Positions 2,496 to 25,986 of a stretch of 37,889 nucleotides of DNA are shown here, one piece after another. The notes below the pieces were generated by a model. The model did no database searches and was not told the DNA's origin. It saw only the letters and a program-made list of their open reading frames with translations. Each line of letters starts with the position of its first letter. The first letter of the stretch is position 1. The position numbers and the translations under genes are program-made. The stretch spans positions 1 through 37,889 of the forward strand of contig CAMWLW010000020.1 of assembly GCA_947175245.1 (NCBI GenBank), written 5' to 3'. Source of the DNA: an uncultured Bacteroidales bacterium (GTDB taxonomy: Bacteria > Bacteroidota > Bacteroidia > Bacteroidales > Muribaculaceae).

Positions 2496-2903
2496 TTATA
2501 GGTTGGCGTATTCTTTGGTGGCATCAAAACAGGGGCAATCCTTGGCTGCGAAATCGCGGTGACCGCGAATTGCTGCCCCTGGATACTGCCGTCGCAATTG
2601 CCTCAGAAGCTCCACGAGTGCCTGTCGTTGGGCCGGAGTGCGTGTGTCACAAGGCTTCATATTGCTGTCGAGGCCGCCCACATAGCAGACCCCTATCGAC
2701 CGCGCGTTGCGGCCCAGACAGTGAGCCCCGGCGCGCTCGATGTCGCGGCCTGGGTAGACCGTCCCGTCAAGTCCTATCAGATAGTGATAGCCTATGCCGT
2801 CAAAGCCGCGCTCGCGGTGCCAGCGGTCAACGTCGGCCACGCTCACCGGGCGCCCTGCCGGTGTGGCCGTGCAATGCACAATTATCAGGTCGATTGCTCT
2901 CAC
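2496..2903 (-). CDS. N-acetylmuramoyl-L-alanine amidase, T7-lysozyme type (endolysin)
   Basis: A 135-residue Amidase_2 domain that hydrolyses the amide bond between MurNAc and the stem peptide. It is compact, like T7 lysozyme. Zinc ligands and catalytic residues are in place: His10 (IIVHCTAT), Tyr39 (GIGYHY), His115 (RGHRDF), Lys121 and Cys123 (KDCPC), with the same spacing as in T7 lysozyme. No signal peptide, so release would depend on the holin upstream. The start is a GTG at 2901-2903 preceded by AGGAGGTG, an unusually strong Shine-Dalgarno sequence for this phylum; the GTG overlaps the holin stop (GTGA). A longer in-frame reading to 3068 is only the holin gene in another frame. Confidence 0.9.
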   Translation of the reverse strand: MRAIDLIIVHCTATPAGRPVSVADVDRWHRERGFDGIGYHYLIGLDGTVYPGRDIERAGAHCLGRNARSIGVCYVGGLDSNMKPCDTRTPAQRQALVELLRQLRRQYPGAAIRGHRDFAAKDCPCFDATKEYANL

Positions 2904-3343
2904 TGCTTCACCTCCTTTCTCCCGGCCGCCTCGACGTCGCCCATGCGCTTTATCATCTCCACGATGGCGCCCGCCAGGTCTTCCTTGTTCTCGATAATAA
3001 GTCTCATAGTCTCGGCTGCCTCCCTGATTTCGTTCTTGTCGTGAATTGTTTCCATCACCGACTTCCACTCACAAAAGATATTGAACGCACCCATAGCCAT
3101 CGTCAGAAACGGCGCCGCAAAGAATATCGACGCCAGGAAGTCGATGCAGCTCAGACACAGCATCGGCAAAAAATACTTGACCGCCTTGTCACAGGTCATT
3201 TTGTAGCCGCGCGAGCGGGTTTTCACTCCGGCCATGCGCGCCTTGCGCACACCGCTCACGAAGTCGACGCCGATAGCCACCAGCACGCACGTGTAGGTAG
3301 CCGCCAGCCACATGATGAATGAATCGGATAGTGTTGTTGACAT
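2900..3343 (-). CDS. phage holin family protein
   Basis: A 147-residue membrane protein resembling the phage_holin_4 / toxin-secretion holin family: hydrophobic stretches at about residues 9-30 and 53-92, then a charged C-terminal tail (about 93-147) predicted as helix. Holins form holes in the inner membrane that let an endolysin reach the wall. The ATG at 3343 gives a short leader of about 30 bases behind the -7 box at 3378-3385; the in-frame extension to 3421 would run through the promoter. Overlaps the amidase start by four bases. First gene of the cassette holin-amidase-spanin-like. Confidence 0.82.
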   Translation of the reverse strand: MSTTLSDSFIMWLAATYTCVLVAIGVDFVSGVRKARMAGVKTRSRGYKMTCDKAVKYFLPMLCLSCIDFLASIFFAAPFLTMAMGAFNIFCEWKSVMETIHDKNEIREAAETMRLIIENKEDLAGAIVEMIKRMGDVEAAGRKEVKQ

Positions 3344-3377
3344 AGTGTTTATAGATTTAGATTGATGATTGGAGATG

Positions 3378-3422
3378 CAAAGATACACTATGCCGTGGCC
3401 TAAACCATGCAAAATTCCCACA
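3378..3422 (-). promoter_or_regulatory. lysis-cassette promoter with 26-bp element shared with the gene at 25217
   Basis: On the minus strand, positions 3422-3397 carry a 26-bp block (core GGGAATTTTGCATGG, ending TTTAGGCC), then 11 unrelated bases, then the -7 box TATCTTTG (3385-3378) followed by CA. The same 26 bases, the same 11-base gap and the same box plus CA occur at 25049-25095 on the plus strand. The block lies where the -33 region and an activator site would be. Confidence 0.8.
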
Positions 3423-19201: not shown

Positions 19202-21820
19202 TTAGAACTCTTGTCCGAGAATGAAGTGGAAGTGACTGCCGCCCTTGATACCGTAGACCGTGTCAAAGCCATAGGCCCAGTCGATACCCATCATACCCAC
19301 CATCGGCAGGAAGATACGTACACCGACACCGGCACTGCGCTTGAGGTCGAACGGCGAGAAATCCTTGACCGACGTCCACGCGTTACCACCCTCCACGAAT
19401 GCCAGACCGTAGATAGTGGTCGATGTCTGGAGCATGAACGGGAAGTGGAGCTCGGCGCCCAGGCGTGTGTAGGCATAACCCTCGCGGCCCCACGGCGTGA
19501 GAGCACCGTTCTCATAACCGCGCAGGGCTATGGTCTCGGTCGCGTATGTGTAAGAGCCCGACATACCGTCACCGCCCACATAGAACGTCTCGAAAGGCGA
19601 CTTCAGGTACTTGTTGTAGCTGCCTAACAGACCGAAGTCAGCACGGGTCATGAGCACCAGCGTGTAGGTCTCGGCGTTGTTGAGCGGGGTGTACGTGCGC
19701 GACTTGAAGCGCAGTTTCCAGTACTCGATCCAGTTGTACAGCTGCTTCTTCGACTCCACGGTGTTCTCCTGGCTCAGTTTCTTCCAGTTCTTCTTGCCGA
19801 AGAGCGATGCAGGCGGTGTCAGCGAGAAGTTGATCGAGAACGACGAGCCGCGGCGCGTGTACAGCGGGTTGTCGATCGATGTGCGGGCCAGTGTCAGACC
19901 CAGCACCAGCGCGTTCGACGTACCGTTGTTCATGTAGTACAGGTAGTCCCAGTTCTTGAGGTAGTACCAGTTGTATGACAGCTCGGTCGTGAGCGTGAAA
20001 TAGTCATCGGGCCAGCTCAGACGCTTACCCAGACCCACCGTGATGCCGGCCAGCTGCAGCAGCTTGTTGGGGTCGTATGCGTTCTCGTATGAATTCTGAT
20101 AGTAGTCGTTGTAGTAGCTCGAGCCGTAACCGTACCCGTAGCCATAACCGCCATACATGTAGGGGTTATAGTAGTTGCTCGAGTAGTACGACGAGTTGAT
20201 ACCTGTCTGGCGCGAGTAGTAGGCCGATACCTGCAGCGAGTTGGGGCGCTTGCCGCCGAACCACGGGTCGAGGAACGACACCGAGTAGGCCTGATAGTAG
20301 CGCGCGTTGGTCTGGGCGCTGATCGTGAACGTCTGGCCCTCGCCCTGAGGCAGCAGACCCTTGTATGAACTGGGGTTGAACAGGTTCTTGATCGAGAAGT
20401 TGGTGAACTTCAGCGCCAGCTTACCGATAACGCCCGTCTGGCCCCAACCCATCGAGAACTCAATCTGGTCATTGGCCTTCGACTCGAGGTTGAACAGGAT
20501 GTCGACCGTGCCGTTCTCGGCGTTAGGCTGCGGGTCTATACCGATTGTCTCGGGGTTGAAGTGACCCATCTGGGCGATTTCGCGGTAAGAACGCATCAGG
20601 TCGCTCTTGCTGAAGAGCTCGCCCGGACGCACGCGCAACTCACGGCGTATCACCTTTTCATACAGGCGGTCGTTACCGTTGATCACCACCTTGTTGATGC
20701 GGGCCTGCGGGCCCTCCATCATGCGCATCTCCAGTTCAACCGAGTCACCCTTGACATTGCGCTCAATCGGCACGATGTTATAGAACAGGTAGCCGTTGTC
20801 CATATAGTAGTTGGCCACAGCGTCATCGTCGGTCGTGAGGCGTTTTTCAAGAAGCTTCTGGTTGTACACCTCGCCAGGCTGTATGCCCAGTATCTCCTGC
20901 AGGCGGTCGGTCGGATAGATGGTGTTACCCACCCAGTCGATGCCGCTGATGTAGTATTTCTGACCCTCATCGATGGTGATGTACACGTCGACACTCTTTT
21001 CGTTGTAGGGTACGACGCTGTCGGCTACGATTTTAGCGTCGCGGTAGCCCTTCTCGTTATACTTGTCGAGTATGCGGGTGAGGTCGTCGCGGTAGTCGTT
21101 CTGTACAAACTTCTTCTGACGGAACAGGTTGAGCAGCTTGCCGTTCTCGTTGGTCTTCTTCATGACGCGCTGCAGGGCGTTGTCGCTCATCACCTCGTTG
21201 CCGTCGATATAGATTTTGTGCACCTTCACCTTGTCGTGCTTGTCGACGTTGATATTGACTATCACCTGGTTCTTGGCCGACAGGTCATCCTCCAGCGTGA
21301 TATTCACGTCGGCGTTGCCAAATCCCTTGTCGCCATAGTATTTCTTCACGATGGCCGTCGCGCGGTTTATGATATTCTGGTTGATGTTGCTGCCCTTCAT
21401 GAGCTGTAGCATCTTCTGGATATCGTCGCGTTCACCTTTCTTCATGCCGTTGTATTTCACCTCCGATATGCGCGGCTGCGGACGCACGGCAATCTCGAGC
21501 CACACCTTGCCGTCGGCAATCTTCTCGACCTTGATCTGGGCCTGGGCAAACAGGCTCTGCTTCATCAGTCGGCGTACGGCCTGGTTGATGTCATTGCCCG
21601 GTATGTCTATGCGCTGTCCCACCTTCAGGCCGGTGTAACCTATGACAATGAAGTCCTCGTAGTTCTCGGCACCTGTGACAGTGATACCTGCCAGCTCATA
21701 GTTGCGGGGTATGCCGTTAAAGATCACCGCCGGGTTGTAGACGGTGTCGGTGACGGCCTGTGCCGTTGCTGTTAACGAGCTTGCTATAAGTGAGATGATG
21801 AGTAATATCTTAAAACGCAT
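19202..21820 (-). CDS. bamA: outer-membrane protein assembly factor BamA
   Basis: 872 residues. Signal peptide (1-20), then five POTRA domains (about 35-440; motifs such as ITVTGAENY, VWLEIAVRPQPRI, VHKIYIDGNEVM, YYISGIDWVGNTIYPTDRL and INKVVINGNDRLYEKVIRRELRVRPGEL split across modules), and a C-terminal 16-strand Omp85 barrel ending in F. The VRGY/F-like loop-6 motif appears as LRGYENG. It folds outer-membrane proteins into the membrane. Unusual: a Tyr/Gly/Asn/Ser-rich insertion at about residues 538-582 within an extracellular loop of the barrel. Lies downstream of uppS (64-base gap) and upstream of two ompH chaperones. Confidence 0.96.
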   Translation of the reverse strand: MRFKILLIISLIASSLTATAQAVTDTVYNPAVIFNGIPRNYELAGITVTGAENYEDFIVIGYTGLKVGQRIDIPGNDINQAVRRLMKQSLFAQAQIKVEKIADGKVWLEIAVRPQPRISEVKYNGMKKGERDDIQKMLQLMKGSNINQNIINRATAIVKKYYGDKGFGNADVNITLEDDLSAKNQVIVNINVDKHDKVKVHKIYIDGNEVMSDNALQRVMKKTNENGKLLNLFRQKKFVQNDYRDDLTRILDKYNEKGYRDAKIVADSVVPYNEKSVDVYITIDEGQKYYISGIDWVGNTIYPTDRLQEILGIQPGEVYNQKLLEKRLTTDDDAVANYYMDNGYLFYNIVPIERNVKGDSVELEMRMMEGPQARINKVVINGNDRLYEKVIRRELRVRPGELFSKSDLMRSYREIAQMGHFNPETIGIDPQPNAENGTVDILFNLESKANDQIEFSMGWGQTGVIGKLALKFTNFSIKNLFNPSSYKGLLPQGEGQTFTISAQTNARYYQAYSVSFLDPWFGGKRPNSLQVSAYYSRQTGINSSYYSSNYYNPYMYGGYGYGYGYGSSYYNDYYQNSYENAYDPNKLLQLAGITVGLGKRLSWPDDYFTLTTELSYNWYYLKNWDYLYYMNNGTSNALVLGLTLARTSIDNPLYTRRGSSFSINFSLTPPASLFGKKNWKKLSQENTVESKKQLYNWIEYWKLRFKSRTYTPLNNAETYTLVLMTRADFGLLGSYNKYLKSPFETFYVGGDGMSGSYTYATETIALRGYENGALTPWGREGYAYTRLGAELHFPFMLQTSTTIYGLAFVEGGNAWTSVKDFSPFDLKRSAGVGVRIFLPMVGMMGIDWAYGFDTVYGIKGGSHFHFILGQEF

Positions 21821-25048: not shown

Positions 25049-25093
25049 TGTGGGAATTTTGCATGGTTTAGGCCCCCGCTCATATTATCTTTG
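25049..25093 (+). promoter_or_regulatory. promoter with 26-bp element shared with the lysis cassette
   Basis: Positions 25049-25074 are identical over 26 bp to the minus-strand block 3422-3397; after 11 unrelated bases comes TATCTTTG (25086-25093), again followed by CA. Transcription should start about 25098-25100, at the beginning of the repeat leader. Confidence 0.8.
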
Positions 25094-25099
25094 CACCCG

Positions 25100-25207
25100 A
25101 AAAACCACTAAACCCCTAAACCCCTAAACCTCGACCTTTAGGTCGAATTAAACCACTAAACCTCGGCATTAGCCGAATTAAACCCCTAAACCTCGGCCGC
25201 AGGCCGA
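25100..25207 (+). repeat. three-hairpin repeat leader
   Basis: The 5' leader has repeats of CC[AC]CTAAACC, each of the last three ending in a hairpin: TCGACC-TTTA-GGTCGA (25131-25146), TCGGC-ATTA-GCCGA (25163-25176) and TCGGCC-GCA-GGCCGA (25193-25207). Hairpin starts are 32 and 30 bases apart and each is followed by AAT[TA]A. The stems differ in sequence but each pairs fully. The last ends nine bases before the ATG. Confidence 0.75.
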
Positions 25208-25216
25208 ATAAAAACT

Positions 25217-25780
25217 ATGAAAATCATTCTGACCCAAAAACTGATTGACAGGCTTATGGAGCAGACGCCCGAGATGACCATGCAGGTACTCGCCACCTGC
25301 CGCGAGCTCGCCGGGCTCGACAACGACGCCATCGAGAGCTATCAGCCCGCGCCCGATGCACCGCCCGTGCTCATCGACATCGTTACCGACATGAAGAAAC
25401 GCGCCATACGTTCACGCCGTCGTCGCGAACGCGCCGCCCTGCGTCGTCAGCTCGAGCAGCACCGGGCCATTGCCGGAGCCAACCGTGTTATCAATGTTAC
25501 CGACCCCTCACACACCCACGACGACCTGATGCAGGCCGCCAAGCGCTTCAGTCACGACATGCGTATGGCCCTTGCCGAGGCCTATCCCGACCCGCGGCGG
25601 CTTTCACACTACTACCGCTACCTCGTCACCAACTTCGCCTATCTTGTGAGGTTCGAGCAGGAGCTCACGGCCCAGATGCGTTCCTACGGCATACGCCGTT
25701 CACTTCTCGACCGTTTCCCCGACAAGCTGTCCGACCTTTATATCCCGACAACCACCCCCGGGTCACGCCACGCCGTCTAA
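25217..25780 (+). CDS. hypothetical Arg-rich protein with structured leader
   Basis: 187 residues, not recognised. No signal peptide or membrane helix. The N-terminal 60 residues are helical and acidic; residues about 60-85 form a very basic helix (KKRAIRSRRRRERAALRRQ) that could bind nucleic acid; the C-terminal half (about 100-170) is helical (LMQAAKRFSHDMRMALAEA). ATG at 25217 follows the last leader hairpin; no Shine-Dalgarno sequence is seen. GC content is that of the core genome. Its promoter block is identical to that of the lysis cassette, so the two are probably switched by the same factor; the basic helix would suit a regulator, but that is inference. Confidence 0.75.
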   Translation: MKIILTQKLIDRLMEQTPEMTMQVLATCRELAGLDNDAIESYQPAPDAPPVLIDIVTDMKKRAIRSRRRRERAALRRQLEQHRAIAGANRVINVTDPSHTHDDLMQAAKRFSHDMRMALAEAYPDPRRLSHYYRYLVTNFAYLVRFEQELTAQMRSYGIRRSLLDRFPDKLSDLYIPTTTPGSRHAV

Positions 25781-25860: not shown

Positions 25861-25986
25861 GTGCATCGTGCATCGTGCATTATGAATTATGAATTGTGCA
25901 TTGTGCATTGTGCATCGTGCATTGTGCATTGTGCATCGTGCATTGTGCATCGTGCATTGTGCATTGTGCATTGTGCATCGTGCATC
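25861..25986. repeat. 18-copy heptanucleotide tandem array
   Basis: Eighteen uninterrupted 7-bp units: mostly GTGCATT and GTGCATC, with two ATGAATT units at positions 4 and 5. The array ends at 25986, where the last unit runs into the stop codon (TGA, 25987-25985) of the minus-strand aminopeptidase. The open frames through it are just the period-7 pattern read in three codon phases and are not genes. Confidence 0.95.

Follow-up and report, generated by a model that had tools for sequence, protein, structure and literature searches.

The window, a 37,889-nt stretch of DNA that is contig C20 of a genome presumably of the family Muribaculaceae, contains an array of short repeats in the predicted leader of a gene for a 187-residue protein. 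The leader opens with TAAACNNN-type octamers, which are followed by three hairpins that alternate with linkers. The features of the locus are as follows.

25050..25069, + strand: conserved promoter-region motif GTGGGAATTTTGCATGGTTT, present at 11 places in the same genome at no more than 3 mismatches, 9 of them exact
25086..25093, + strand: TATCTTTG, a match by sequence to the -7 box TAnnTTTG
25095..25216, + strand: predicted leader of 122 nt, with the start site predicted from the TAnnTTTG box
25102..25130, + strand: tandem repeat of the octamer TAAACCCC, from Tandem Repeats Finder, with 25 pattern matches in the same genome
25131..25146, + strand: hairpin 1, TCGACC-TTTA-GGTCGA, from the fold and a hairpin scan
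25147..25162, + strand: linker ATTAAACCACTAAACC, from the sequence
25163..25176, + strand: hairpin 2, TCGGC-ATTA-GCCGA, from the fold and a hairpin scan
25177..25192, + strand: linker ATTAAACCCCTAAACC, from the sequence
25193..25207, + strand: hairpin 3, TCGGCC-GCA-GGCCGA, -8.9 kcal/mol, ending 9 nt before the ATG
25217..25780, + strand: gene of 187 amino acids, belonging to an orphan Arg-rich family of paralogs that occurs in a single genus among the genomes sampled

The three hairpins named in the original prediction are all present (25131-25146, 25163-25176, and 25193-25207). With a hairpin defined as a perfect stem of at least 5 and a loop of 3 to 5, positions 25100-25207 hold three that do not overlap, compared to a mean of 0.18 in dinucleotide shuffles, and none of 5,000 shuffles reached three. 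Moreover, folding of the leader together with the gene start gave a z score of -3.9. Tandem Repeats Finder reported units of 8 bases at 25102-25130 and of 30 bases, in 3.1 copies, at 25117-25213. By bare count, at least three such hairpins are also found in 22 other stepped windows of the contig, and it is the periodic linker rather than the hairpin count that distinguishes 25100-25207. The array had been said to run from the predicted transcription start to nine bases before the ATG. The last hairpin does end nine bases before the ATG; the octamers start at 25102 within the 25095-25216 leader, the start site of which is itself predicted from TATCTTTG at 25086..25093, a match to TAnnTTTG, the Bacteroidetes -7 box consensus. 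An intrinsic terminator was rejected, as the hairpins continue into ATTAAACC or ATAAAAACTATG with no U run, and so was a known RNA family, as Rfam 15 gave only a tRNA in the window above the gathering score. A phage origin was rejected as well: a phage collection held no similar DNA, and viral contigs gave only three stretches, unrelated by eye. We note that a tandem array of the 7-mer GTGCATT, in about 18 copies, lies just 3' of the 25217-25780 gene (25861-25985 of the window).

The array is repeated elsewhere in its own genome. Units of the pattern TAAACCTCG-N(4-16)-CGAA occur 24 times in that genome (2.79 Mb) and 0 to 2 times in each of seven relatives of the genus, where the matches were unpaired by eye and chance-like. 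A tighter unit pattern, searched in 397 family genomes, also gave 24 in the own genome and 1 or 2 each in 10 others. A second hairpin type, AAACCRAYGAGGC..GCCTCRTTA, lies within the same arrays and was found five times in the own genome and not at all in the seven relatives, and the octamer pattern, which adjoins most of the hairpin arrays, gave 25 and 0 matches in the same genomes. By our own count, the 24 units group into 17 arrays. Eight of these stand in front of genes of a single orphan paralog family, the 25217-25780 gene included, and are not independent in the array counts; others lie before a gene for PqqD, one for a DUF389 protein, and two that have no Pfam match. Twelve arrays are start proximal and five are not, one of the five lying directly after a stop codon. 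The idea that the array is devoted to control of the 25217-25780 gene is not supported in its original form, as the same units precede unrelated genes, follow a stop codon, and sit far from starts.

The orphan family offers a comparison of leaders between species. A search of 148 genomes gave matches to the family in 4, the own genome among them, and all 4 belong to one genus; ten matches lie in the own genome and ten in the sister species G003. The 25217-25780 product had one subthreshold Pfam match and none in NCBIfam. The family alignment shows a conserved N-terminal part and Arg-rich tract, with variable C-terminal parts, and the tract resembles the arginine-rich motif of lambda N. The closest G003 homolog of the 25217-25780 product is 64% identical over 176 of 187 residues and has a leader of 21 nt without hairpins, and nine further G003 paralogs also lack the array. 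Homologous leaders without pairing, the outcome that the original prediction had named as counting against it, are thus what G003 contains. Nine of these ten array-free leaders are 19 to 41 nt long and one is 86 nt, and those array-bearing leaders of the own genome for which the promoter can be seen measure 50 to 124 nt. Paralog leaders also differ in repeat number (1 to 3 hairpins and 2 to 9 TAAAC units). Because the ten homologous G003 leaders are free of arrays, the arrays are lineage specific. Gain in the own lineage is the simpler reading, and loss in G003 is possible.

How far pairing is kept while letters change was assessed first within the own genome. Among 21 aligned units, 95.2% of cells pair, compared to 88.8% when the 3' letters were shuffled (0 of 500 shuffles did as well), and among 17 distinct units the arms match at 5.53 of 6 positions, compared to 4.37 when permuted (2 of 10,000). 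The stems vary less than had been claimed: the closing TCG/CGA and the C-G pair that follows it do not change, 4 of 6 pairs never vary among the 21 units, and a single position clearly covaries (G-C in 12, A-U in 8, and unpaired in 1). At the innermost pair, one change affects both sides and five cells are unpaired; the remaining variation is in stem length and loop. Covariation inside the own genome alone is weak and amounts to that one stem position.

Other evidence comes from RUI054, a rumen Bacteroidales metagenome-assembled genome. RUI054 was reached by one scan of genome contigs that gave 106 stretches, of which 80 were listed and the contexts of 9 were read; stretches L126, L151, L161, and L162 are RUI054, and most of those beyond the 9 come from unrelated phyla. 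In RUI054, AACTAAACCT-N(4-20)-AACTAAACC occurs 32 times, with none in the reversed control, and the interiors are mostly hairpins with differing stems. The mean outer Watson-Crick run is 4.52 of 6, compared to 2.15 with permuted 3' arms (0 of 10,000). In a set picked by eye from among the matches listed, a procedure that favors hairpins, 38 of 49 distinct units pair perfectly over 5 bp or more, with 21 different stems. The RUI054 elements may be related to the own-genome arrays, with which they share the linker and some stems. The prediction of paired changes with pairing kept is supported mainly by other loci and RUI054 and less by the three hairpins themselves. We conclude that shape is kept while stem letters change, as is supported more strongly by RUI054 than by the own genome.

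Octamer arrays turn up sporadically across the family. Of 304 family genomes, 38 matched the octamer pattern, one of them as many as 257 times; the reversed control gave few matches. In 9 of 55 other-species arrays, the octamers run straight into a perfect hairpin of 6 bp or more, compared to 15 of 1,081 nearby control windows, and the other 46 arrays have no strong hairpin abutting the octamers. Where hairpins lie beside octamer arrays, their stems differ between species. The exact linker-hairpin-linker pattern matched 34 of 294 genomes of the order, and by eye the interiors were well paired only in the own genome; thus, the strict linker-hairpin-linker form is rare. We note that in three other-species stretches (L339, L342, and L349), outward-facing GTTTA and TAAAC arrays are predicted by folding to be able to pair across the intergenic region.

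We think it probable that the array at this locus belongs to a dispersed hairpin repeat specific to the lineage, in which TAAACNNN octamers and short perfect hairpins between TAAACC linkers secondarily shape mRNA leaders. The octamers may grow and shrink by slippage, and the hairpin units may be copied between sites via recombination or an unknown transposition-like step. The copies that persist would be those that still fold. Several points count against a dispersed repeat. The array-free leaders of G003 could be losses rather than empty sites, and the 8 arrays (of 17) found at genes of a single paralog family may have been copied along with the gene. In addition, covariation in the own genome comes down to one stem position, the RUI054 elements are often two-sided and the own-genome arrays one-sided, and in most other-species arrays (46 of 55) the octamers have no strong hairpin next to them.

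Perhaps the element acts at the level of DNA, as a substrate for single-strand transposons (REP/REPIN-like or other) or as a recombination or cruciform site, and the mRNA structure is a by-product. The RUI054 elements (L204-L233) are often two-sided, with left linkers AGGTTTAGTT complementary to right linkers AACTAAACCT that often meet at GGTTTATAAACC; own-genome arrays are one-sided. Outward-facing array pairs within about 90 nt were seen in 7 of 20 fetched other-species stretches, where sense bias was not evident. On contig C12 (about 19786-21136), two near-identical arrays, L059 and L060, form direct repeats on either side of a DUF1016/YhcG nuclease gene, which looks as though it had inserted into an array. 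Moreover, G-T and A-C mismatches on the linker strand are not clearly different among the few cases (4 and 2 in RUI054 and a single A-C in the own genome). A DNA-level role nonetheless seems unlikely to us, as 16 of 17 own-genome arrays are sense to the next downstream gene (the remaining one is sense to the preceding gene) and the stem sequence is unconserved, unlike that of REPs. In addition, the own genome (96.5% complete) has no match to the Y1 transposase PF01797, which was found in five of eight genus genomes, all five of them without the repeat, and a RAYT-driven REP was rejected on the same count. We note that the two-sided RUI054 elements form a long imperfect palindrome with side hairpins.

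Alternatively, the array may control translation, with each hairpin serving as an RNA-binding-protein site, perhaps for the downstream Arg-rich protein autoregulating its own leader. All 12 start-proximal arrays point toward the start codon, and the gap from the last hairpin to the ATG is 9 or 10 nt in 11 of them and 14 nt in the twelfth (nine gaps were computed and three were read off the sequence). Arrays accompany eight of the nine exact copies of the promoter motif GTGGGAATTTTGCATGGTTT in the own genome, the exception being the copy at 3402-3421 of the window, and the Arg-rich tract is conserved in the orphan family. Control by a dedicated protein is nevertheless improbable: the G003 ortholog and paralogs have the same Arg-rich tract and no hairpins, other gene families have arrays in front of them too, some arrays are remote from any start, and the loops and stems vary, leaving no constant sequence for recognition except that the loop mostly ends in A. 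A translation-control array, as first proposed, is not supported as a gene-specific device; a general effect on translation may exist, as the gap hints. At no more than 3 mismatches, the promoter motif was found four times in G003, once in G002, and not at all in five other genus genomes. The array-free copy lies ahead of one gene for a holin-like protein and one for a phage-type amidase (PHROG 822; 2496-3421 of the window, - strand).

The narrow gap also counts in favor of the dispersed repeat. In Prevotella bryantii, protein levels fall when structure lies close to the start codon but not when a hairpin is inserted at -21 (PMC3155529); therefore, we infer that the arrays keep just clear of an unstructured initiation stretch. 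An array within a leader would be transcribed, its last hairpin would be kept just outside the approximately 9- to 10-nt AU-rich stretch needed for initiation, and from there it could damp or tune translation without blocking it. Predicted stabilities of nine last hairpins range from -6.4 to -8.9 kcal/mol. The 9- to 10-nt gap may reflect constraints that translation initiation imposes or an effect on initiation itself, and it offers a way to test how leader structure is tolerated or used in Bacteroidetes.

Two further readings are more remote. Template-switch correction could perfect imperfect palindromes while slippage multiplies octamers, such that pairing is kept without selection, and both arms do change together with few half-changed intermediates, octamer number varies, and octamer expansions are sporadic across the family, but we consider this quite improbable because it would leave unexplained a linker that is constant from species to species, the variety of stems set between identical linkers, and the narrow 9- to 10-nt gap before unrelated genes. 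Finally, to our knowledge, Bacteroidetes lack Shine-Dalgarno sequences. We speculate, as a long shot, that what is inherited is a grammar and not a sequence (a fixed TAAACC linker, interchangeable hairpins, and amplification of stems that are each species' own) and that a hairpin 9 to 10 nt before the AUG is a sequence-free mark that positions the start site without Shine-Dalgarno pairing.

Repeats that keep their shape and change their letters go unnoticed by ordinary repeat finders. The openly licensed literature searched gave, among the matches listed, no account of TAAACC-hairpin arrays, and the arrays, if confirmed, would be a class of intergenic elements of gut and rumen bacteria that is unlisted in that literature. 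REP and REPIN elements are short extragenic palindromes, sometimes inverted doublets, with compensatory changes in the spacer hairpin (PMC3116915). The present elements share the short extragenic palindromes, at times paired as inverted doublets, and the compensatory changes, but REP sequences are conserved and tied to the RAYT transposase, whereas here the linker is conserved, the stems vary, and the own genome has no PF01797 match. MacGregor described in 2015 direct repeats of the heptamer TAACTGA just upstream of start codons and pointing to the start, sporadic across lineages, five Bacteroidetes included, and of unknown function (PMC4679880). For six TAACTGA repeats, one pair at 3.9 kcal/mol is predicted, and hairpins are lacking (PMC4679880). 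Short tandem units upstream of start codons, orientation to the start, and sporadic occurrence are shared with the arrays, of which 12 of 17 are start proximal; the unit differs in sequence and length, being TAAACNNN in the own genome, and hairpins are present.

The SDR4, SDR5, and SDR6 elements of Nostoc are reportedly very small hairpin repeats in which pairing is kept by compensatory changes, as Elhai et al. are said to have described in 2008. They are also said to be often embedded in tandem short repeats, genome-wide, and in a narrow lineage. Shared with these elements is a short hairpin with compensatory changes among copies, a likeness that is weak within the own genome alone, as well as the embedding of hairpins in tandem short repeats, here octamers. 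The phylum and the sequences differ, the tandem repeats are heptamers in Nostoc and octamers here, and several hairpins alternating with a constant linker are a feature of the own-genome arrays. On our best reading, the arrays appear nearest in kind to the cyanobacterial SDR elements and the TAACTGA repeats and fit none of SDR, TAACTGA, and REPIN in full. That reading places the arrays among the small dispersed intergenic repeats, as a variant.
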